A stretch of DNA of 64,000 nucleotides from Branchiostoma floridae (taxonomy: Eukaryota; Chordata; Leptocardii; Amphioxiformes; Branchiostomatidae). Where the stretch lies: the NCBI RefSeq assembly GCF_000003815.2, contig NC_049985.1, positions 14,017,185 to 14,081,184 on the forward strand, in the 5' to 3' direction. Each line of letters begins with the position of its first letter. Position 1 is the first letter of the stretch. This document shows positions 29,252-63,961 of the stretch, in pieces. The position numbers and the translations under genes were made by a program. The notes below the pieces were generated by a model that was given only the letters and a program-made list of their open reading frames with translations, did no database searches and was not told where the DNA came from.

Positions 29252-30249
29252 TCATCGGGCTCGAATGGATCGTAACATAGCCGAAATTCGTAGCTCGTTA
29301 GATTTAAGAGTTTCTCGTGATATCAGGGACAGGGCCTTGCTTTCCAGCCATGTTGCAGAGAACCGCCTGGCGAGATGCCAGAGAGGGACACAGTTGAGTT
29401 CGTCCAGTTCGGCAATAAGTCGCCGCTCACATGCTTCCTTCAGCTCAGTGAACTGAAACCTGTCCGCAGCTATCAACAAGGAGGGAACGAGACTATAGGG
29501 GCGTGGTCGGCCCGCCAACCTCCCCCGGAGCTCTCGTTCCTCTATCCTCATCCCGTAGGCCGCTTTCAGGACCAGCGTCATGACGTCATGTTCCACGTCA
29601 GGGATCACAGCTGTTTTCTCCCTGCTCTCCTTCCAGTCACTGCCCGAAAACATGTCCCTGGGGAATGCCGAGTACATGTCGGTATGCTTCAGGTGATAGA
29701 AAAATTTCCAGACGTTTCTCCTATAAGACGCGTCATCTGCAAGGCACTGTGAAACCAAGAGGACGTCTAACCCTAACCTCAACATTTTAACTCTTTACTG
29801 TATCATAACCATAACAATAGAAAGTTAGCTAGAAACAAAAATGTGTAAAAACTTAGATTTGGAGACCATCAGGAGCTAACGGTGAATTGTTTGACGGTGA
29901 AACGTATTTGCGGTGAAATATCCTGTACTATAGAACGTCGTAAAGATATTGTTGGAAAAGAACACTTTCCTTACCTGAAGTACCGACTTGCTTCTGCCAG
30001 AACATACCAGCTACAGCGCAGTTCCACCTTGCGTACTCCTACCACCAACAATACATCATCTACAACAGACCTCCTCTCCTCTGATTGGTTCGCATCTTGC
30101 TCTTCCTGCTCCCCCTCGTCTCTGACGCTGTCCCGGTATGTGACCCTGTGTCCTCTACCGGAAGAAACAGACATCTCTCCATTCACGCTGTTGTGACTAG
30201 CTGTGACTGAGGTAGACACACATGTCGAGTTTGTGGACATATCGTCCAT
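29252..30249 (-). CDS. BTB/POZ domain protein
   Basis: Two coding exons on the minus strand: 30249-29975 and 29657-29252, joined in phase 2, giving 226 aa. The joint restores the canonical BTB core YFRDMFSGSDWKESREK. Residues 1-60 are an acidic, Ser/Thr-rich leader. The BTB fold starts near residue 62 (VDDVLLVVGVRKVELRCSWY, where the usual His-Ala-x-L becomes RCSWYVLA), continues through VEHDVMTLVLKAAYG, and reaches LLIAADRFQFTELKEACERRL. The last 60 residues resemble the start of a BACK domain. There are no Kelch repeats or zinc fingers. BTB proteins of this kind are often adaptors for cullin-3, but the specific family was not recognised. It is divergent from the neighbouring gene at 30768. 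Confidence 0.82.
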
Positions 30250-30767: not shown

Positions 30768-32250
30768 ATGATGAACGCCTTCAGAACGGCGCTGTCTGTT
30801 ACATCGCGCGTCTGCCCCAGGACTGGCCTCGGTATTCTATCAAGGAAGAACGCAACACCTGTAACAGGTAAATTAAGCTACGTATATTTCAACTCTAGTT
30901 TGGTTATATAAAATCGGTGATCTGTAATGCACAAGTCTTCTGTACACACCACAATCGCAAGTGATGTATTTTGCTGCTGGTAGTACATATACTAGTAGAT
31001 GATTTAACTCGGTATCACTAATGGTTGTTTATAGATGTTTGTTGGTTTGTTTTATTTGGATCTTGTGCTTGATTTCTCGACGCCACAAACGGATACTAGT
31101 TCCAAATCATTGAAAGGTGGCTCATACATGTACCCTTTTTTCTTCTAACAGGAGATAAAGCCTCAGTTTAATAAAGGATACAATTATGTCATTAATTATC
31201 ATCATCTATTGTTGGACAATCCAGAACTATACATGTCCGCGGCGTACACCACGCCGCTCCGTACCCGTCCTGACGAAAACAGCATTAAGAACTGCCTGAA
31301 ACCCGACTTCCGGTACGCTGGCACTGGTTCTAAACATGCGGGCTGGACCGGAGCTGGACTGGCGGTCGGAGCGGGCGTCCTCTTCGGCGCAGGTCTTTAC
31401 AAGGTGAGCTTTTCAATACCAAACGTTACTGTTACCTACCTTCTCCTTTTCTATTCATCACATAGTGTGTTTTAGCAATCTTGAAAAGTAGCATTACTAA
31501 TTTCACAAAGTAGACAGAACGCAACTTGTTCTAGAAAAGCGACATTTCCGACGCTAACATGAAAATGATTTTTCATTTATACTTTGTATTTTGATTGATT
31601 GATTTAAAAACATTCTATCAACATGGCGATTTCTGTGACATTTTTATCATCAGACGACACTTCACAACAAGTCCCCCACGAAAGAGCCCGTTGACGATGG
31701 AGACGCGGTTGAAAAGACAGGCCTGAATCAGGTTGTCACGGTGGACAAGTCTCCAGTCGGAGTACTCACAAGGGCAGGCGCTACCTCTTCTTCAGCAGCG
31801 GGACTGCAGTCGGGAACAACAGTTGAGGCGGACGTGAAAGTTAACAATAGGAAGGATCCTGCAGAGGAAACTGAGAAGGATGCGGAGAACGAGGTTCCCA
31901 CAAAGGTTGGCGAAGTTGACAGATCATCACAGGAAGATCAATGTGCTGACGACAGTAATCTCTCATCAATGACCTCTCATGCCATCCTGGCAGCACTCCC
32001 GAAGAACGACCGCTTGTACCCTGCAAAGCCTCCGCAACAGCCACAACTACAGCTCCATGGCGACCACATTTGGATCCGCTTCTTAATGTATCTTCTAATT
32101 TACATGGGTTACGTAAAAATCCTCCCTGCACGATATTCGGCACAAGCAGCAAGCACCTATGGTAGGACGGCTGCTGAGCGTTTTGGCAGCAGAAGCCCGC
32201 AAGGGGGCGCCTCACGCGGATCAACTCGCAGACAGAGGCCATGGACATGA
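30768..32250 (+). CDS. Unrecognised membrane protein, tandem paralog 1
   Basis: Three exons: 30768-30867, 31225-31403 and 31654-32250, giving 291 aa. The family was not recognised. The N-terminal 33 residues are rich in Arg/Ser/Thr without acidic residues (RTALSVTSRVCPRTGLGILS), as in a mitochondrial targeting peptide. Residues 74-93 are a Gly/Ala-rich hydrophobic stretch (WTGAGLAVGAGVLFGAGLYK) that could span a membrane by a glycine-zipper packing. The middle is acidic and probably disordered. Residues about 233-250 (WIRFLMYLLIYMGYVKI) form a second hydrophobic helix, followed by a basic Ser/Gly tail. The exon joins are supported by the paralog, which uses the same sites and phases. Location in mitochondria is an inference from composition only. 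Confidence 0.75.
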
Positions 32251-35085: not shown

Positions 35086-36702
35086 ATGATGAACGCTATA
35101 AGGTATGCGCTGTCCGTTACAGCGCGCGTCTGCCCCAGGACTGGCCTTGGCCTTTTAGCAAGGAAGAATCCGAAATCAGTCGCAGGTAAACTGGCCTACG
35201 TATTTTTCAACACTACGTTAGCTATCTATAGTCGACGGTTTTGTAAACCAATAAGCTGTTTTAGTATAAAGCACAAGTAAAATTGATGTATTCTGCTGCT
35301 GGATGTCGATGATTTACCTCAATATCACTAATGCTTGCTATTCGCCAAGAAGCGTACGTTTTCGGTTATGATGGGTCTATATGTAGGTCATGCAACAGCA
35401 TATAACTCGAGAAATTGTGAATGGAACTTTGGGATTTTTGGTAGGTGTGTAGCGGTTGTGGAAAGGAAGGCAAAGGAGGTTAAAAAACATTTTTTTAACC
35501 TCCTTGGGAAGACCAAGTTCGAAAACGGTTTACCTGGCGTTTTCCTACGGTACTCCAGCGAACTTTGTATTTCTTCCACATGTACGTGTATACTTGTTTT
35601 GCTTTCCCGAGACTTCAAATAGTTACCAGTTACACATGAAGGTGGCTCGTGCGGAGTCGTGCCTTTTCTTCTTCTTAAGGAGACAAAATATACAGCTATG
35701 TTTCTAATCATCATCCTCTATCATTGGACAATCCAGAGATGGCTTCGACTTTCTACCGCTCAGCACCCCGTACCCAGTCTGACAAGTCCAGCAGTAGTAA
35801 AGTCACCTCACAGTCACAAATGAACTGTCTCAGCCCGAACTTCGGGTCTCCTGGCGGACATGCACACTGGGCAGGGGCCGGGTTAGCCATCGGAGCGGGG
35901 GTCCTCTTCGCCGCAGGTCTCTACAAGGTGAGCTTGTACTCGGTTTTCAACATACAAAACGTTTCTGTTGGTAAACATTTCCCTTTTTCAAGTTATTAAA
36001 TTTTGTAATTGAAACTTAGCATTATAGTAGTTTTGAGAAGTTGACAGAACACAACTTGTTCTAGAATAGCGACATTTCGAATCCTAACTCGAAACTGGTT
36101 CGCATCCACCATTCATATTTAGTATTTTTGTACCCTTTTTTCATTTGTCAATTTTGTGACATTTCTACTATCAGACGACTGTGAACCCACCCAAGAAGAC
36201 AACAGATGACATAGATGATGTCACGAGTGAAAAGACGGGCCTGGAGCAGGCCGTGTTGGACAGTGAGTCTCCAACCGGAGTTCTCACAAGGACTGAAGCC
36301 ACCTCTTCCTCAGAAGGAGGGCTTGAGTCGGGAACAACAGGTGAGGCCAGCCAAGTTGAAACGGGGAGAGATCCTGCAGATGAACTTATCGCCCAAGTTG
36401 ATGATATTGAGGACAGTAGCGCACTGAAGACCGCTAGAGACATGCTAACAGTTTTACCGAAGAAAGACATCAGGTACGGCTCCAAGTCTTCGCAACAGCC
36501 ACAGCACCATCATTCTGCTGACCACATTTGGATAAGAATCCTCTTTTACCTACTAATGTACATGGGGTGCATAAAGATGGTCCCCGCTCGAGTTTCTGCA
36601 CAAGCATGCCGTAGGGCTGCTGCTGAGCATTTTTCAAGAAGTCCACATGGGGGCGCCTCAGACAGGTCAAGTTGCAAAAAGGGGTTCGGGCCACGTATCT
36701 GA
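35086..36702 (+). CDS. Unrecognised membrane protein, tandem paralog 2
   Basis: Three exons: 35086-35185, 35737-35927 and 36175-36702, giving 272 aa. It has the same architecture as the upstream paralog: Arg/Ser N-terminus (LSVTARVCPRTGLGLLARKN), Gly-rich segment ending exon 2 (AGAGLAIGAGVLFAAGLYK), acidic linker (EKTGLEQAVLD, GVLTRTEATSSSEGGLESGT), and a C-terminal hydrophobic segment WIRILFYLLMYMGCIKM at about 216-232. Exon 1 and both hydrophobic segments are the best conserved parts, while the acidic linker has diverged in length and sequence. Both frames are open, so both copies are probably functional. An AATAAA at 37279-37284 is a plausible polyadenylation signal. Confidence 0.75.
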
Positions 36703-49400: not shown

Positions 49401-50529
49401 CGCATTGTTTATCACTTTTCATGGCGGACAAACAGTAGGGTCAAAATAAGAAACTGAAACAAAGAACAAAAGTCTATGAGTAGACAAACCCGTTTTTGTC
49501 TATATTTGTTGGTTGCAGTTGGAAGTCTTGGTACATACTTAAGCTAACGTCACATTTCCTAACCGGGGCCCGGTCGGGGTGTTTGTGGAAATAAAAATAC
49601 AAATATACACGTAAGAATATCCACAGATAATGCGTCCTGTGTAGTTTGGTGTCTTCTATATCGGACTTTTCGTTCCCGAAAGGGATGGGGATGTGAGGAT
49701 GAGGGTGAAAGTTTCGGTATCTTTTTTTAACAATTGCAGACTGGACAAAATTGGAAACTACTTCAAAACAGGATTTTACTATTCTTTATGTCCAGAAACG
49801 TTAGCCTTTCTGTGAATATACCATATATCTGCTTCAGAAATTCTATTCTCTGATAAAGTATAATTGTGTGTAAAACTAAATGGTAAATCTTCTTAAGACG
49901 GATTAGAATGACTCACACGCTACAAGATGGAAAAATGCATTTGCTATATCGTCTTGTTGCCTTCATGCAAAGGACGCTGCGGTATATTGGATATAGAAAT
50001 AGTGTATCTGTTACAGTTTATCTCTAGTGTTAATCCTTAGTAATAGTAATGCACTGTAACGTAAACAAGTCAGATTACCAAGCTGTTTATTTCTGCATAA
50101 ACCCAAGTGGATAGCTTAGCTTGCTGAGATGGCGTCGATAGAACTAACAAAACAACAACAAAAAGTTTTGATTATCATAGGTGTCACGAAATTATAATAG
50201 TCGTTGTATCTAAGGTAAATATGAAGTAAGCTAGGATTATCTTAAGAATTTGCCTCTCTTATAATCCTCAGCGACACTCGCGGGTACAGATGTTGAGAAA
50301 AACGGAGTTGTCTATTAGTTTTGCTGTCCTTCTTCTGAACAGAAAAAGAAAACCCTGAAAGCTAAAGGCATTTATTGCTGACGCACTACTTTAGAAGCTG
50401 TAGAATATGTTATACTTGCGTTCTCTTGATATTTTGATGAAGTGTGTATGCTTACATATGTTGGCAAAAAATGTAATACTATTCACTTTTATCCGCAGGG
50501 TATCTAAACGCAGTTTCAATACTTCAGTT
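46493..50529. other. Intergenic, no gene recognised
   Basis: It contains a short GTTT microsatellite at 46677-46701 and a GC-richer patch at 49040-49260. Open frames are all below 90 aa, without motifs or splice pairs. No structural RNA was recognised. Confidence 0.4.
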
Positions 50530-50860
50530 CAAATTGTATTTGATTTACTATGATTTTGCTCGACCTCCGACCTCTCCCACTCTGTTTTTGAGTTGATATT
50601 ACCAAGTTTCTGTTAATTCAATTGGACATTTTGTTGTATATATAAGAACTAAGTTGATTTATTTGATTTTACTTCACGTATGCAAATCACTGTTTTTCAG
50701 TTTACCATATGTTTGCTTTCTGTTATTTCAAAGTTATAATGTGTATTATTTGTACATTTCTGTTGCTATTATTTCTGTATTGTTTTAATGTGGACTCCAG
50801 GAAGACTAGTGTATTTCACTAATGGAGATCTAAATAAACCAAACCAAACCAAACAAGTTG
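50530..50860 (+). mobile_element. LINE 3' end
   Basis: The segment ends TGGACTCCAGGAAGACTAGT, CACTAATGGAGATCT, AAATAAA and a short (CCAAA)n tail. This is the typical 3' UTR of L2/CR1-type LINEs, whose tails are short microsatellites. The 5' limit is approximate, and no reverse transcriptase is present. Confidence 0.6.
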
Positions 50861-50991
50861 TTTTAGGTTATTTAAGGATATCATGTCGACGGATGGTGGT
50901 TTCAAATTTCAGTATTTTGAAAATATTGCAGATTAACCAAAACCACAGTCCCTCAAGTCGATATCCCTAGATACCCTGATTTAAAAGAACG
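50861..50991. mobile_element. Small inverted-repeat MITE, copy 2
   Basis: It shares with 27613-27738 the inverted ends (TTTAAGGATATCA against GATATCCCTAGATA) and the central GGTTTCAAAT/AACCACAG pair. It lies directly after the LINE tail, so one may have inserted next to the other. Confidence 0.4.
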
Positions 50992-52464
50992 GAGATAGGT
51001 AACCCGCGGATAAAAGTGAAGTAACTACCGTTAAACATAAGCTTAAGCATACAAAAGCTTTAACAATGAAATCCATCGTATCTGTTTTGATCGTTTCTGG
51101 TTGTCGACGACTTAACTTAACTTATCATGAAGATGATCCCCGAGTTACTTGTGACGGACCATCGTGTGATAACAACACATTCCTACATTAGAATTAACGC
51201 AGAAACGTAATGACGTGATCGTCTTATCAAAATGACGAGGGCCACGGCTTAAAATGTTTGTTTGTTTTCCCCACTCAATGTCAGCTGCATCTGGCAACTT
51301 TTGAAATGGAGAAGAACAGTACATATACTAACGAACGAAAGGACAAGCCGCCAACTCAAACTGTTTTTGGTATTCCTGATTTTTTTTCACACTTCATCGA
51401 GCTACCACCATTACTATACATAACCATTACTATTGTGAAGACTAATGGTTTTCTCCCCTCCCTTCCTGTTTCCACCCCCCTCCCCAGGGAGAACCTTGTC
51501 CATCTTCACCACGTGTGTTCCCGTATCACACCCAGGCATCGACAGCTCCAATTGTAACCCACTCATTACAATTAACTAATTAAGTCCAGCAGGAGCTCGA
51601 TCCAATCGATAACATTTGTGTAATTGATTTTGGGTTCGATACGACACAGTTGGCTCCGCCTATCTGATTTCTAAGACAAAATTTCTGGTTGATGATAAAG
51701 CAAACACAACAACAAACTGTTCTCAGACGGTCTTTCATTCGAAGCCAACAAAGTACTCGTATAGATGACTGTAAAGGCTATCTTCTATATACACACATAA
51801 GTATGCCACTGTATATTTGTAGTTTGCATAAGGTTTTCAACATGAGATAGTATGTTCTTATCTTCATTTAGCCAATTACAACGTAATTAATCAAATTTAT
51901 CCGGAACTCAGACAGGCGATTGTCAGTGCATATTTCTCCCAGAAGAGATCCTCTTTGTTTATCTTAACTAAGACCACACCTTAAGAATTTTCTACAAAGA
52001 GAGAACGTGTAATTATTCAAATTCGTAATGAGTCCATTTAAATCGATACTGCAGTATGTGCTATCAGTTAAGTAAATGTACGTCATGTGAAGGCACATCA
52101 ATAGTTTTGTTGGCTCTTTTCCGTTTTAAATTAATCTGACACAATACCATTTCTTGCTCGGCTTTTCATTCAGCCTTGCAAATCTATGTAAAAATTTAGA
52201 AGTTGTTGGGAATAATGCCAGATATCTGTTATTTCGTTTGTCAATTCTTCAACAGTGTTCGTACCCTAACCACAAAGTTTTGTACGAATGCAACGTCACT
52301 ATCTCAAAGCATCTAACGTTACATCTTTTGTTTGGCTCGGTCAGCATCGTATATTCCAGAACAAGCACTGTTGGCCACAACGAATATATACGAATAAGGT
52401 TATAGAACAAACTGTCGAACGACATTCAAGATCAAAACAAAACACAATTTTTGGAGACATAACG
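50992..52464. other. Intergenic and probable 5' region of the TRIM-RanBD gene
   Basis: No coding exon was recognised. The frame of the first TRIM-RanBD exon is open upstream to 52288, but the extra residues do not resemble a TRIM N-terminus, so they are treated as 5' UTR. Confidence 0.4.
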
Positions 52465-55400
52465 ATGCCTTATAGGCTTGTAGCTTTATGGCCGATCGGT
52501 ATGGCGACAGAAATTGAACACAATATCGTCTGCAGTATCTGTTTGGAAACTTTCCACAGCCCAGTGATTTTGCCGTGCAGCCATTCTTTTTGTAAGAAGT
52601 GCATTTCGGACTGGATGGACATGACTGTACACAAACAACGCGCGGAGATTTTCACTTGTCCGGAATGCCGAATGCCGCTCAACTTGTCGCGGGGAGGAGC
52701 GGGGGCCCTCCCGTCCAACTACGCACTCTCTAGCCTGGTGGACGAGCACAGAAAGTCAGGAAATGGCGGGAATTTCAGCACAGACGGGAACGCTAGATTA
52801 TGTCAGGGTGTGGGGACTCAAGGGGTACAAATGGCCGGTAGGTGTAGGGAGCATGGCAAGAGTCTCCTGATGTATTGTATGGTCTGTGAGGAGGAATGCT
52901 GTTTGCAGTGTATGAAAGAGCCTGGAGGTAGACATCCGGCCAGCTCACCGCAACACAACGTCAAGAATAAGTATGTGGCGACGTCCTTGAGAAAGGTACG
53001 TCATCGTGCATAGATAGTGGCGTACGCGTATTTTATGAACATCAGTAATACATTCTTTTAACCAGGACGGTCTTTCTGCGACCTAAAGTTTTGACACGGA
53101 GCGCTCAACGAATTGTGTAAAAACACAACGGTCAAACATATCCGTTTTAGGTCGCTGTGAGAGCGCATCGCGATCGTCGTCTAGTGGAAAGGAGGCCTTG
53201 ATTACGAATATGTGTGTCCTAAGCATTGATTGGACAGCGCAACACATACTTAAAGCTCAGACATCATTTACACAGATAAAGTTTGTGACTTTTTTTAGGT
53301 GAGTTTGATGGACATCTCAATGGGCAGCAGGAAAACGCATATGAAAATCTTGGACATGGAGACTGCGTTGTCCGTAAGTACTGTCCATCATCTTTCGTTA
53401 CCATGTCAACTTTCAATGAAAAAAAACATCGACTCTTGAATTATAGACTTAGGATTGCCAATATAGCTACCGTTTAAGCTGTTGACGAAATTATCTTATT
53501 TTGTTCATAGAGCAATGCTGGAAAAGCTATAAACGAAATCAAATCGCAGATGAAAGACATTAAACTAGCATTGGACATGAAGGCGGAACAAATTGTGGAG
53601 GCAATACAGTCTGAGACAGCAGAGAAACAAGAGCGGATAGAGGCCATTAAAAGAGGTTTGAACACCATCCAAGACGATTCGAGATTTCTGCTGGGGGAGG
53701 GGGGCAACTCGGAGAAATTCCTAAAGGTAAATAGATACATTTTGTATTATTCTGTTGTTCAAACCCTGCAATGTCATTTTCACCTATGTCGGTCTACTTG
53801 TACTATCTGCTTTCGTAACTATCAGAAATAGAAATACATTGCTGGATTGCTACCGTCTAACGTTAGTCAAGATGCAATTAACAGCAATATCCTGTAAAAC
53901 ACTGATGCATTTATTCTCAACATCAACAGGAGGCGCATGCTGTCCAAGTTAGGTAAGCATCCGATAGGTAAAGGAAAATGCTTCGGTAACGTCGAAGATG
54001 ACATTTGTCTATGCTATTGAACAGGTTTTCATACCATTGAGAGCGGTGCCTGGCATTTTCTTCTGACGAAACTTGAAGCACATGCTTTGTTATGATTGCG
54101 TTAGCAATGAGAATGTCGTGACATTGCCTTTTTCTTGCTCATTAGAGCGCCAATGAGAATTTCAGGCAGACAATAGTAAAACAAAACAGAAATGATGGCA
54201 GGCACATTATAGACTTGTGTGTTTTTCTTCACAAACATTTAGGGCGGCAGCAATCTGCGCAAATCCAGACTGGAACGACCAGAGTTTGGTTAGTGTGCAA
54301 CAGATTCCCACAGAGCGACAACTACAGGCGGTAAAACGCGCCATTGACGACATTTTCTGTCAGAAAACCTCAAACAAGCTTCAAGTTCACGGCGATGGAT
54401 GGTCAAGTTTCGATCAAGCCAGATCTGAGTTCACATCAAGTAGTGTCCATGATGCTGGAGCGATGCCGCTACCATCTCAAGGCTTTGGCGGTAGTAAAAC
54501 ACAACAAAACAAGATAGCATCTGTTGCTTGTGAGGTAAAAAATTGCAAGGTATTTTTTTTTGTAAATCTGAACATGTAAAAGTAAGGTAATGGACTAACA
54601 GGTCAATGTTTGAAAATTTCTTTGCGTCGTCAATAATTTTCAAAAAGAAATAATATTTATTCATACTCAACCCAACAGGGAACGATTCGGATACTGACAA
54701 GACAACCAGAATCGACAGTTTCATGTTCAGAGAATCCACATCTGGAAGCCGGTTTACAGCTTTTCCCGAGTCTATCTGTTTCTGGTGCGTCATCACTTTC
54801 GACGATTGCCGAGGATATTCCGATCTCAGACGATGGTACGCCGAAAATGACCGAGTCGTTGCCCAACGTGCCATCGAATGTACACGAGAATCCTGGGCAT
54901 ACAAACGATAGAAGAGGACCCGAAGACACGCAAGCAAATGTATTTTCAAAGCTGACAGAGGACAACCAGAGGGAAGAGGGAATAATGTTTCAGCAAAGTG
55001 CTAAGTTATTTCTGTGGGATTCGGACTGCACGGACTGGAAAGAGCAGGGAGTTGGCGATCTGAAAGTGTGTACATACACTAGTAAGGTTATAACGTTACA
55101 TATACATGTACTCACGTAGTCTAGTAGTGCCTATGATCAGCCTATCACAGAATAATGCTGTTTCGTGTAAGAACATCCACTTTGTTAACACAAGCTTCCT
55201 ACTACCTAACCCTGTAACTAAATACAACTTTGGTGCAAAACTTTAGCAGGTAGATGTTAAGGTATCAAATTGTTAAAGTATCAAAATGTTACATAATGGT
55301 TACACATTACTTAAATGCATTATGTATTTTGAATGGAAACTAAAACCAAAGATTGGTTTATAACTTTGTAAACCTGCTGCAATTTTTCCATTATTGTAAA

Positions 55401-56440
55401 CCTTTGTACATCTTTGTAAAGCCATTATTTTCTCACTAAAGGTAGTATCTCACTGCACTTGGGGTACCTGTGCGGCACTGCGGGGTTCATTTACTGAGGC
55501 ACTGTTGTGTTATTTTCGCCGATACTTTATAATTCATATATTGCGTAATACGTAAAAGTATGACTAAGAAGACAACAAAGTACACAAAACGTAAGAAAAT
55601 ACGCTCTTCATCTCTGAAATTCGTTGAGTAATCTTTCGAACCCCGCAGCGCCGCACCGGTGCCCCAAGTGCAGTGAGATACCACCTTAACCCGCTGACCC
55701 CCCTTGTTCGCAGATTCTGCGCCATAACGTGACGGGTAAGGCGCGCGTGCTGATGTGGAGTGACGGGACGTACAGCGTGCAGGCGAACCACTACATCACG
55801 GCGGACATGACGCTGGTGGCCGACAGGATCGGCGGGGAGGACGCGCTGGTCTGGTCGGGCATCGACGCGGCCGACGGATCACGGAAGGTGTCGTCTGCGG
55901 AAGCATTCTATCTGTTTGAACGTTACTGAACTCAGTCATTGCTTTTTTTCTCTAAAAATGGAGGTATCATTTTTGCTGTGTCTGTCTGTGTGTGTTTGAT
56001 AGTCTGTTTGTGTGTGCGTGTCTACGTTTCAGGTTATTTGTGGTCAGCATAACTTCAGAACCTTTAAATGGATCGCGATAATATTCTTTCATGTGCGTAG
56101 TTGTTGTGAAGACAGAGGTCGAAGTCAATGTCATGGACATGATGTCATCTTGTTGCCTGTAACTATAACATGTTGCTGTTTTCACATGTGAATGACCATA
56201 CGGAAGGCGCTGTACCTTTGTTGTGACAGTATTTTACGCAACCTAATGTAGGGTGCTGTACCTACATAAAGTGTGTCATTGCAACTTCTTTGTCGTTATC
56301 GCCGTGTTCTCTAGGAGGCGTTCTTCGCAGCGACTTTTTCTCAGCCCGACGCTGCCACTGTTTACAAGAAAGTGTTCGAGAGATGTGTGGCGAGAGAGAT
56401 GGTGCAGGAACGGACGGCATCGACCAGCAGTACGCTATGA
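52465..56440 (+). CDS. TRIM-like protein: RING, B-box, coiled coil and C-terminal Ran-binding domain
   Basis: Eight exons: 52465 (or 52501)-52995, 53299-53373, 53511-53726, 53930-53952 (23-nt microexon), 54243-54534 (donor could be 54549), 54679-55065, 55714-55887 and 56315-56440. All phases agree, giving 595 aa from the ATG at 52501; the ATG at 52465 adds 12. RING C3HC4: C11, C14, C26, H28, C31, C34, C53, C56. B-box2: C115, H118, C126, C129, C134, C137, H145, H152. Residues about 170-260 are helical and charged (INEIKSQMKDIKLALDMKAE), as in a TRIM coiled coil. After a Ser-rich linker, residues about 470-585 match RanBP1-type Ran-binding domains: KLFLWD, WKEQGVGDLKILRH, ANHYITADMTL, ALVWSGIDAAD, then FSQPDAATVYKKVFERC. 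The family's RanBDs bind Ran-GTP; RING TRIM proteins are ubiquitin ligases. TRIM proteins usually end in B30.2, NHL, FN3 or similar; this C-terminus is unusual. Confidence 0.88.
55440..55686. mobile_element. MITE with TAA target site, PIF/Harbinger-like
   Basis: The 247-bp element has inverted ends of about 48 bp (AGGTAGTATCTCACTGCACT on the left; AGGTGGTATCTCACTGCACT as the reverse complement of the right). It is flanked by TAA at 55437-55439 and 55687-55689. It lies in the last-but-one intron of the TRIM-RanBD gene, ending about 25 bp before the acceptor at 55714. Confidence 0.75.
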
Positions 56441-56492
56441 CAATCATCTGGCGGATACAGCGGATTTGAATATGATAGGAGTATTACTAGTA

Positions 56493-57043
56493 CGAGGGGC
56501 GGTCAATAAGTAATGCCCCTGTATCCACTTCCAGTCGTCTGATCTAGATGAAATTTGTATGTGTAATGATTCATATCTTTATAGATTATGTTGCAAAAAA
56601 CAGCTCTGAACAAATTGTGGTTTCTGATTTACTGGTGTTTGAACTGAGTCAGGTGCGAAATGGACCAGGTGTGACCGCAGTGATCCGGTTTTTGTATTTG
56701 AAAGGACGCACACCAAAGAAGACTTTTGATGAAATGAAAGAAACTTATGGTGATGATGCCCCATCATATGACCTTGTAAAACAATGGCATCCTGAATTCA
56801 AACATGGCCGGTGGAAACAGCTCCCAGACCTGGCCGTCCCTCTTCTGCCATTGATGAGGCATCTGTTGGAGGACCAACCTGGGGTGTCCTACAAAAACGG
56901 TGTCCAGAGCTGCATCAAACGATGGGAGAAATGCATAACTCTGGGTGGTTCCTATGAAGAGAAAGACTAATAACTGTGCCAAGTTTCATTAATCTCCTGC
57001 TATGGAAAATGGGTCAAGGGCATTACTTATTGACCGCCCCTAG
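56493..57043 (+). mobile_element. Internally deleted mariner-type transposon
   Basis: The ends AGGGGCGGTCAATAAGTAAT and the reverse complement of the right end are identical over 24 bp. TA flanks both sides (56491-56492 and 57044-57045). The internal frame (56548-56970, + strand) keeps the N-terminal helix-turn-helix region of a mariner transposase (FLYLKGRTPKKTFDEMKETY, then PSYDLVKQWHPEFKHGR) and the extreme C-terminus (CIKRWEKCITLGGSYEEKD). The catalytic middle with the DDD/E residues is missing. It is therefore non-autonomous. Near-identical termini suggest fairly recent movement. It starts about 50 bp after the TRIM-RanBD stop codon. Confidence 0.88.
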
Positions 57044-57045
57044 TA

Positions 57046-58492
57046 AAGTTGTACAGACTGTTTCATCAACACTGACATCCAATGGCCCATCTCCACTTAC
57101 TATCTGCTAGCAATGTCAGTAACGGGAGTCCCACAGTTGTATTGTATGTTCGACAACAAAATTTGTATTTTTGTCAAAAAAGGAAATTTCCTAAGTTGAT
57201 GCATTAAACGGAAATGTTACACATTTTGCAAGGCTGTTCTTGTTCATTCAATCATAAGACACAATAAAAGTCAGACTCAGAGGCCGATATATGAATCTAT
57301 TCCCAAAAGATGCTAGATGGGGTGGGGTATGGTGTTCATATTCACCATTTTCAAAACATATTGGCCAGGTTTCGTACCGGAAAGGTTTTTCTACCAGGAA
57401 AGGAATATATGCTGGGGAGGTTGTAGTCTATCCTCGCGTCTGATATAGCCATGTCCGTCACCTGCCTCCTACTGCTGCATTGCATGTTATTTCTCTATAA
57501 CAATCTGTGTTTTATATAGGTTGGGGCCAGCTGACTCACCTCACCTGTTTCTCAACCTGCGCTTTAATTTGGATTACTTAATTTGAATACTAGCCGTCAG
57601 TGTGCTTAAAAAAGAATTTCTAGAGTTAATTGCGGGTACGTTGCCCCACGTCAAATGTGACTCGATGTTTCATATGAAATCCAAACCTAAGGGTTCCAAA
57701 TACCTGCACAGCTCCAATTTCACCCGTAACAACCTACATATGCAAGTGGTATTTCAAGCCATCCTGCTTACTAATCCAGGTGCTATAGCCATCACATTAG
57801 CACAACGAAACTGCACAAAAAAAGACACGATTGCTTTGCTTTTCGCCATCACCTTTTATCACCATTTCTCCAACAATAAATCAAATAGCCAGAGAGAAAA
57901 CTGTTCCCATAATATTTCAGATTTCACATTGCATAGTCTTATCGGGTATATCGATGACAAAAAACATCTAATTATAAACTATGATAGTAAGTTGCATCAG
58001 AAATCTTTAAGCTATTCATGTACACTATCTAGTCGCTTTAGCGCACATGAATGTTTTTGTTACAAGTGCCTTATGAACAGAAGGAGGTCGTAAGAATGCG
58101 AGACTTAAATCAGAAATTTAACATATGGACCGTAAGTATATGGTCCCTTCTTAGTATATATTAATACATTTGTATGATAGACCTACACATTTCCAGCTCT
58201 CTTTCTAAATAGCCATTAATCTATCCTACGATAAACTAAGCACTACCAAAGCAAGACGAAACATATGACACGAATTTCCAAAGTGTGTGCTTAAAATGAC
58301 CGAAAAAGAAAGCTAAATGCCAAGGCCTCATATTGGGCATTGCTATTGCATCAGAATACAAAACTGACTAATACTAAGGATAACATAAAACTTAATGTTG
58401 AAGTAAAACTGCCACTAGTGCTAAATAACCACACCGTGAGTCTAACCTGGGCTAAGGAATTATCATAATTAAAGAATTGAGCATTGTGTCAT
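57046..58492. other. Intergenic, no gene recognised
   Basis: A 163-codon open frame at 57602-58093 lacks an ATG at its start, has no recognised motif and has AT-rich composition like its surroundings; it is not called. It is otherwise featureless AT-rich sequence. Confidence 0.4.
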
Positions 58493-58673
58493 TAGGGGTG
58501 GGTAAAGGTACGATTTAAAAATACAAAACCGTTTTTTCTTGTTGGACTGGTCCAAAAAACGGACCTAAAATCAGTGAATCGGATTTTCGACCGAGTAGAA
58601 AAGGAACAGATTATATTGGCAGGAGTTTACACGTTATGGCGCTTACTGGTACTTTCTGTACCGTTACCCACCC
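58493..58673. mobile_element. MITE with hAT-like ends
   Basis: The left end TAGGGGTGGGTAAAGGTAC is matched by the reverse complement of the right end TAGGGTGGGTAACGGTAC. Flanking TGTGTCAT and GTGTACAT are imperfect but could be a decayed 8-bp duplication. Ends of the form (C/T)AGGGGTGGG are common in hAT elements. Confidence 0.5.
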
Positions 58674-59241
58674 TAGTGTACATAGTCATACTGTTTTATC
58701 ACAATTATTTCAAAACATGCCATACTACCAAGATGTTGTAGATTGCATACCACGTACCCATGTACTACATCCTGTGTTGTTTTCACCTCATTATACAGTA
58801 TTGTTATCGTTTGGTTACTTAAGTTTACTCATCACATTACTAGTATTAGATAGCCTAAGGGTTCACATTCTTTGACTATTGCCACCAAGCAGCATTATCA
58901 CATATCTTGTAAAGGTAGCTGTTTAACAATTATCCTATTTGATTAGGCAAGAGGAAACTCTATGATTTTTTTAGCATTAATTGTGGTCCCAGGCTGTGCT
59001 GTTAAGATGCTACGACTGTGTTACACTACACATGCTAAATTGTTGTCATGCTAAATTTGTTTCCACATGAATACTAGTATCTAGATTATATTAATTTGTT
59101 GTGCTGTTGACATGTTACAATCGTTCATGTGTGCTCTATGACTGCATGGCAGATTGTAGCGGGCAAGGATACCAATAAGCGTGTTCTCAAAAATCAAAAA
59201 GCAATGCAAATTGGATCATAACAATGATGACCATCAATTAC
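58674..59241. other. Sequence beyond the last recognised SRCR exon
   Basis: AT-rich sequence. The SRCR gene presumably continues here or further left, because its last recognised exon ends at a splice donor, but no further exon was recognised. Confidence 0.35.

Positions 59242-63961
<4,720 letters not shown>

Follow-up and report, generated by a model that had tools for sequence, protein, structure and literature searches.

A predicted lancelet gene joins a TRIM-type RING region to a C-terminal Ran-binding domain with altered Ran-contact residues

The C-terminus of a TRIM protein is usually its target-recognition end, and the Ran-binding domain (RanBD) normally binds Ran, a switch protein of transport. 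The two have been found together in zebrafish ftr52, for which PMC3137616 describes an RBCC-RanBD-cyclophilin arrangement. The gene is spliced and a transcript of it has been cloned (JF295002); its RING exon contains a premature stop. The authors propose that the cyclophilin A (CypA) part could confer affinity to viral proteins, and they speculate that the combination may not become fixed in its lineage. A comparable exchange, according to the same source, is that of primate TRIM5-CypA (TRIMCyp), in which the C-terminal recognition domain was swapped for another host domain. Two further papers treat TRIM5alpha with RanBP2 (PMC6237768) and the fusion of the Nup358 cyclophilin domain (PMC3234246). 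Among the papers listed, we found no TRIM-RanBD case besides ftr52. The TRIM survey PMC2533329 nowhere uses the terms 'RanBP', 'RanBD' or 'Ran-binding' in its main text, and none of RING, B-box, RanBP or TRIM appears in the main text of PMC6071037, which deals with lancelet domain architectures.

Within a window of 64,000 nucleotides of Branchiostoma floridae DNA, a RING, a B-box-like zinc region, a helical region and a RanBD are all encoded on the forward strand at 52465-56440, and as read from the sequence a single intact gene joins the TRIM-type RING part to the RanBD, confirming the observation made in the preliminary description. The claim made there that no TRIM protein with a RanBD had been described does not stand, as ftr52 precedes it. 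Like ftr52 (PMC3137616), the lancelet protein has a TRIM N-terminus and a RanBP2-like RanBD in the place of B30.2. It differs in that ftr52 is a fish finTRIM with a CypA part and a stop in the RING exon, whereas the lancelet chain is open and has no CypA; the lancelet combination may have arisen independently. It also differs from TRIMCyp, whose cyclophilin came by retrotransposition, in that the lancelet RanBD is multi-exon.

The exons form one phase-consistent GT-AG chain encoding an open protein of 607 residues. Exon 1 (52465-52995), which starts at the ATG at 52465 or at Met13 (52501), encodes the RING and the B-box2. The helical region begins in exon 2 (53299-53373, 75 nt), which is missing in the B. 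lanceolatum model P0002, and exon 3 (53511-53726, 216 nt) encodes the presumed coiled-coil region. It is followed by a 23-nt mini-exon, exon 4 (53930-53952), encoding EAHAVQV plus two nucleotides, and by exon 5 (54243-54534), a TRIM-side segment. Exon 6 (54679-55065) encodes a linker and then the first RanBD strands from residue 478 (54973), exon 7 (55714-55887) the middle of the RanBD, and exon 8 (56315-56440) its end (residue 591, 56389), the C-tail and the TGA stop. One lancelet record, P0004, begins at Met13 of this chain, and residues 1-19 have 39-71% identity in P0002-P0004. A search of Rfam over 50000-58500 gave no match.

The chain as first described lacked the 23-nt exon. A direct splice from 53726 to 54243 shifts the frame and runs into a stop at residue 291, and we rejected it; the mini-exon restores the frame. 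Its residues are found in three of the four lancelet records (P0001, P0002 and P0003), P0004 being spliced differently there. Between 53760 and 54240 there are 12 frame-open mini-exons, and 30 direct donor-acceptor pairs (53726 to 54202, for example) also leave the frame open. The sequence alone does not force the choice, and 53930-53952 is preferred because of its splice sites and its match to P0001-P0003.

The RING (residues 23-68, 52531-52668) is of the C3HC4 type and scores 37.1 bits against PF00097 (Pfam cut-off 21), with all eight Cys/His residues invariant in the five lancelet sequences, which are the window chain and four database records. The B-box2 (residues 127-164, 52843-52956) scores 17.4 bits against PF00643, below the Pfam cut-off of 24.1, but its probable zinc ligands C127, H130, C138, C141, C146, C149, H157 and H164, which we take to be the B-box2 ligand pattern, are likewise invariant in all five. 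Among the matches listed, this RBCC part aligned to the structures of TRIM2 (residues 15-159, E 6e-17) and TRIM3 (residues 20-255, E 4e-18, the best solved-structure match among them) and to an oyster protein, LOC133173040 of Saccostrea echinata (P0010), which is 24% identical from the RING into exon 5, up to residue 328. The TRIM3 and oyster alignments extend past the B-box into the presumed coiled-coil region. Of the RING, B-box2 and helical region initially assigned, the RING passes its threshold, the B-box2 is sub-threshold with its ligands kept, and the helical region is a presumed coiled coil.

These relatives end differently. TRIM2 and TRIM3 (class VII) have filamin and NHL domains and no RanBD (PMC2533329), and the precomputed Pfam list of the oyster protein holds no Ran_BP1, unlike the lancelet protein. 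The C-terminal domain of the latter is Ran_BP1 and not a known TRIM type (SPRY, NHL, FN3, MATH, PHD-bromo, ARF or others). It matches PF00638 at 104 bits (cut-off 23.2, 8.3e-30) over residues 478-591, and Pfam finds no other RanBP2-type domain in the 607 residues. With a score of this size spread across three exons and the architecture recurring in four lancelet records, the joined chain is not a product of chance. The best PDB matches among those listed are RanBP2 and RanBP1 domains, with RanBP2 domain 4 first; phmmer gives 85.6 bits to domain 4 and 73.1, 75.4 and 74.0 to domains 1-3. These bits favour a possible origin from RanBP2 domain 4, but the tree does not: there the lancelet RanBD falls with RanBP3, and next with Yrb1, on poorly supported branches, which may reflect long-branch attraction.

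Four Branchiostoma records, all of them gene models, are the same RING and RanBD protein, with 62-96% identity and lengths of 579-606 aa against 607 aa for the window chain. They represent three lineages (B. floridae type, B. lanceolatum and B. belcheri type), the highest identity being that of a B. floridae x B. japonicum record. Each of the four carries both the TRIM part and the RanBD in one protein, and none is split into two genes; P0004 deviates around exon 4 and is without part of exon 6. P0002 carries the name RanBP2/Nup358, but human RanBP2 has 3224 aa and four RanBDs, while the lancelet protein has one RanBD and a RING N-terminus. No other protein with both RING and RanBD was present among the matches listed, and the window holds no second TRIM or RanBD copy (search with the gene's own parts, E up to 1; with canonical RanBDs, E 0.01). 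Against the lanceolatum and belcheri-type records the RanBD shows 82-87% identity and the B-box 89%.

As a fold the lancelet RanBD is whole, but its Ran-contact signature is not. Its globular part is 36-43% identical to human, Nup358 and yeast domains. The RanBDs of RanBP2/Nup358 and RanBP1 belong to the same Pfam family, yet of 24 positions that do not vary among 13 canonical RanBDs, 11 or 12 are changed in each of the five lancelet sequences, compared with 0-4 of 24-28 invariants when each of the 13 controls, which are partly related to each other, is left out in turn. The contacts named in PMC3045386 (HFEPVV, the R of EWKER, and the residues aligned with R1284 and with Lys88, Arg90 and Lys130 of yeast RanBP1) are largely changed. 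HFEPVV is gone. In EWKER, W1211 and K1212 are retained and E1210 is conservatively D, but the R is replaced by Q, L or H, and the E of the same E/R pair is also Q in two of the five. W and S/N stand in place of R1235/R1236, T/A at the residue aligned with R1284, and G at 1238. Most replacements at Ran-clamping residues are fixed across the lancelet lineages. Over the globular part, the net charge lies between -3 and 0 for the five lancelet sequences and between 0 and +7 for the 13 canonical domains.

RanBP3 offers a comparison for such loss: its RanBD, 24% identical to the lancelet domain, is likewise divergent with weakened Ran contacts, including G at 1238, and changes 10 of 19 globular invariants. 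It retains 6 of 10 invariant Arg/Lys (R/K exchange counted) where the lancelet domain retains four, and in EWKER it keeps the E and R where the lancelet domain keeps the W and K. RanBP3 nevertheless binds Ran-GTP, with a Kd of 14 uM by ITC (PMC3045386), so residue loss would weaken Ran binding but need not end it.

We favour, as the probable reading, a TRIM ligase whose C-terminal RanBD was repurposed for some ligand different from Ran-GTP, or else binds Ran weakly with the help of dimer avidity. A charged E2 would be recruited by the RING, dimers would form through the helical region, and the RanBD, which has a PH-like fold and lies in the target-recognition position, would bring in the ubiquitylation target. 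Because many Ran-clamping residues are replaced, mostly by changes fixed across lancelet lineages, the domain is most likely repurposed and may well recognise something other than Ran. A natural RanBD with its fold kept and its predicted Ran clamp largely lost would be useful for probing other ligands of the fold.

The preliminary description had instead proposed that the RanBD binds Ran-GTP, so that the Ran gradient governs where the ligase acts or which partners it chooses, as at the nuclear pore or spindle. This we regard as doubtful. The RanBP2/RanBP1 structural matches speak for it, and since EWKER retains its W and K and has D for its first E, weak binding by the lancelet domain is possible, perhaps helped by TRIM dimer avidity, as the example of RanBP3 would allow. 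Against it stand the contact losses listed above, fewer basic invariants than in RanBP3, and a RanBP3 mutant with changes to the corresponding E and R, which is described as compromised for Ran binding (PMC3045386). Errors in which adjacent genes are wrongly fused by gene prediction, shared between species, have been shown for lancelets by Banyai and Patthy (PMC4967905), and with its intron retained exon 5 would meet a stop at 54577-54579. Such a misjoining is very improbable here: in the RanBD exon no in-frame ATG precedes 54847, the next being at 54985, and the 56 residues preceding 54847 (residues 380-435) are conserved as protein (38/56 identical to P0002 and 38/56 to P0003), so the RanBD exon requires an upstream coding exon, for which exon 5 gives the right phase; the records, themselves gene models, also agree on the join. 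A functionless decaying copy might be suspected from the lost Ran contacts and the stop of ftr52, but the window chain is free of stops and frameshifts, the RING and B-box ligands are invariant and the RanBD is strongly conserved, and we consider it exceedingly improbable.

The gene is the first unbroken TRIM-RanBD combination we have found, kept across three lancelet lineages where the earlier ftr52 was stopped. If transcripts confirm it, a TRIM joined to a nucleoporin-type domain would have arisen more than once and could persist, in contrast to the speculation against fixation in PMC3137616. A bolder proposal, which we think unlikely, is that chordate TRIMs acquired a RanBP2-type domain on two or more independent occasions, in ftr52 and in lancelets, and that the lancelet copy, kept through the divergence of the genus and turned from Ran, is an intact and fixed analogue of TRIMCyp that uses a nuclear-pore docking fold as its bait or receptor, either for a pathogen or for some other component of transport. 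Still less probable is an antiviral decoy, in which a TRIM captured a RanBP2-like nucleoporin domain used by a virus, much as primate TRIM5 took up cyclophilin A, so that the RanBD binds viral parts and the RING marks them for destruction. The RanBP2 matches, domain 4 first, and the union of TRIM with RanBD-CypA in ftr52 would fit, but a virus-binding surface is expected to evolve fast and the RanBD is highly and uniformly conserved, the tree does not resolve a domain 4 origin, and the antiviral argument for ftr52 concerns CypA and not the RanBD. A tblastn search of the window for a cyclophilin as in ftr52 gave eight weak matches, none convincing.

The best of these eight matches (E 0.077, 19 residues, on the opposite strand) is contained in a transposon relic.

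The predicted exon chain of the lancelet gene lies on the forward strand and consists of a RING and B-box exon of 531 nt (52465-52995), an in-phase exon 2 of 75 nt and 25 residues (53299-53373), exon 3 of 216 nt (53511-53726), a 23-nt exon 4 encoding EAHAVQV (53930-53952), exon 5 (54243-54534), exon 6 with the linker and the start of the Ran-binding domain (RanBD; 54679-55065), exon 7 (55714-55887) and exon 8 (56315-56440), which ends at a TGA stop. Each of the seven introns has GT-AG borders, and the reading frame stays open for 607 residues up to the TGA. The preliminary description drew one phase-consistent chain but missed exon 4, and its version runs into a stop at residue 291. Because several solutions keep the frame open (12 mini-exons and 30 direct donor-acceptor pairs), the choice of exon 4 was decided not by frame alone but by the Branchiostoma gene models P0001, P0002 and P0003, which have identical residues at the same place; in a fourth model, P0004, the splice differs and part of a similar stretch appears in another frame (RRRMLSK). 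A 23-nt exon is common among TRIM genes. Exons 1-3 (531, 75 and 216 nt) resemble the layout of finTRIM genes, in which a large RING/B-box exon of 555-594 bp is followed by short coiled-coil exons of 96 and 234 bp (PMC2657112). Exon 2 is absent from the B. lanceolatum record P0002, which may reflect alternative use of the exon or a discrepancy between gene models.

Pfam detects in the window protein a RING (PF00097, 37.1 bits), a B-box below the cut-off of 24.1 (PF00643, 17.4 bits) and a Ran_BP1 domain at residues 478-591 (PF00638, 104 bits), bearing out the earlier proposal of RING and RanBD in one predicted gene. Among solved structures, the RING/B-box/coiled-coil (RBCC) part best matches TRIM3 (residues 20-255, E 4e-18), with TRIM2 next, and the RanBD matches RanBP2/Nup358 first, then RanBP1/Yrb1, with RanBP3 far behind. 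Lancelet fusions, even species-shared ones, can be gene-prediction errors (Banyai and Patthy, PMC4967905). Three sequence facts speak for the TRIM and RanBD exons being one gene: homology to an RBCC protein of the oyster Saccostrea echinata (P0010) extends into exon 5, up to residue 328; the junction of exons 5 and 6 is phase 0; and the coding segment before the first in-frame ATG of exon 6 (54847) is conserved. The 56 residues upstream of this ATG share 38 identities with each of P0002 and P0003, at alignment scores of 183 and 181 and shuffle maxima of 43 and 44 (300 shuffles); in P0004 about half of the segment is missing, and 18 of the 29 aligned residues are identical.

A whole-protein search returned nine proteins out of 8000 scored candidates; four, all from Branchiostoma, combine RING and Ran_BP1, and the five others among the matches listed have either domain, never both. 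The four are P0001 (B. floridae x japonicum, 'isoform X1', 96% identical), P0002 (named RANBP2, 74%), P0003 (B. floridae x belcheri, named TRIM2-like, 68%) and P0004 (B. belcheri, 62%), so the architecture recurs in other lancelet gene models, a check that had been proposed earlier. The same four came from a search with the RanBD part (161 candidates) and from a profile search (8000 candidates), which added P0010, without Ran_BP1. All these searches take matches sharing 5-residue words among limited candidates, and the rarity holds for the matches listed. We count three lancelet lineages, since the RanBDs of P0003 and P0004 are nearly identical and P0001 groups with the window. The RING-RanBD gene is real at the level of sequence.

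The preliminary statement that no TRIM protein with a RanBD had been described gives way to zebrafish ftr52, in which an RBCC is spliced to a RanBD and cyclophilin A (CypA) and whose cDNA was cloned; in all fish tested, however, its N-terminal RING exon is cut short by a premature stop, and the authors' speculation is that such a fusion may be useful against some viruses yet carry drawbacks that impair its fixation (Boudinot and colleagues, PMC3137616). The lancelet gene is thus the first unbroken TRIM with a RanBD that we found, not the first TRIM with one. Its origin is likely independent, because its RBCC matches TRIM2/3 structures and the oyster protein, whereas ftr52 is a finTRIM (PMC3137616). 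No convincing CypA was found in the 64-kb window; TRIM5-CypA of primates offers a functional analogy.

The earlier view that Ran-GTP controls the ligase was set against published RanBD contacts: HFEPVV of the N-terminal extension, EWKER against the Ran effector loop, basic R1284 against the DEDDDL tail and one glutamine against the G domain (PMC3045386). In lancelets HFEPVV is lost (its placing depends on the alignment), EWKER becomes DWKEQ, DWKEL or DWKQH, and R1284 becomes T or A. The glutamine is printed as Q1248, but in our chain numbering the one aligned with RanBP3 G381 is 1238; the lancelet domain, like RanBP3, has G at this position. The RanBP1 residues Lys88, Arg90 and Lys130, which contact CRM1 (PMC3045386), correspond to Q, S/T and G; yeast residue numbers were placed on the alignment by our own count. 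A set of 13 canonical RanBDs has 24 invariant columns, from which the window sequence, P0001 and P0002 each depart at 11 and P0003 and P0004 each at 12; leaving out each canonical RanBD in turn, together with its human/Nup358 partner where one exists, gave 0-4 changes of 24-28 invariants in these partly related controls. Counting the globular part by itself, the five lancelet sequences change 7 or 8 of 19 invariants and RanBP3 changes 10 of 19; of 10 invariant Arg/Lys, 6 are changed in the lancelet domain.

Ran-GTP control is possible but disfavoured by this loss of contact residues. A RanBP3 double mutant in the E and R of SWVER (printed E352A/R352V) has compromised Ran binding (PMC3045386). 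Weak Ran binding could still matter, since W1211 and K1212 are kept with E1210 replaced by D, the lancelet protein should be dimeric, and the likewise much-changed RanBP3 binds Ran, if weakly (Kd 14 uM; PMC3045386). The RanBD is nevertheless firmly conserved, at 87% identity between the window and the lanceolatum record and 82% to belcheri-type records. These values approach that of the B-box (89%) and exceed those of the RING (83, 71 and 71%), exon 3 (79, 68 and 69%) and the exon 6 linker (68, 61 and 53%), and the stretch GDLKILRHNVTGKARVLMW(S/N)DGTYSVQANHYITADM has a single variable position across all five sequences. Since many old contacts are lost from a domain so conserved, it has presumably acquired a new ligand, and we consider the likeliest mechanism to be a RING ligase that would bind its target through a repurposed RanBD end.

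In the exon 6 linker, residues ~421-432 read TIAE(D/E)IPI(S/A)DDG in three of the five sequences and TIGEEITIAND in belcheri-type records; the former faintly resembles a SUMO-interaction motif, in degenerate form. Directly after the stop codon lies a short mariner-like transposon relic (56491-57045), whose 31-nt inverted repeats, 94% complementary, flank a frame with a Mos1 HTH domain (PF17906). Elsewhere in the window, two similar forward-strand frames ~4.5 kb apart (31639-32247, in which Pfam finds no match, and 36160-36699) share HFY(H/Y)QTT...GVLTR...ATSSS...SGTT and are perhaps a duplicated element. On the reverse strand are a 290-residue frame with an Endonuclease/exonuclease/phosphatase domain (PF03372; 18277-19146), a 180-residue BTB/POZ frame (29255-29794) and, downstream of the gene, three or more frames with scavenger receptor cysteine-rich (SRCR) domains (59237-59725, 60414-60923 and 62312-62938), perhaps one multi-SRCR gene.
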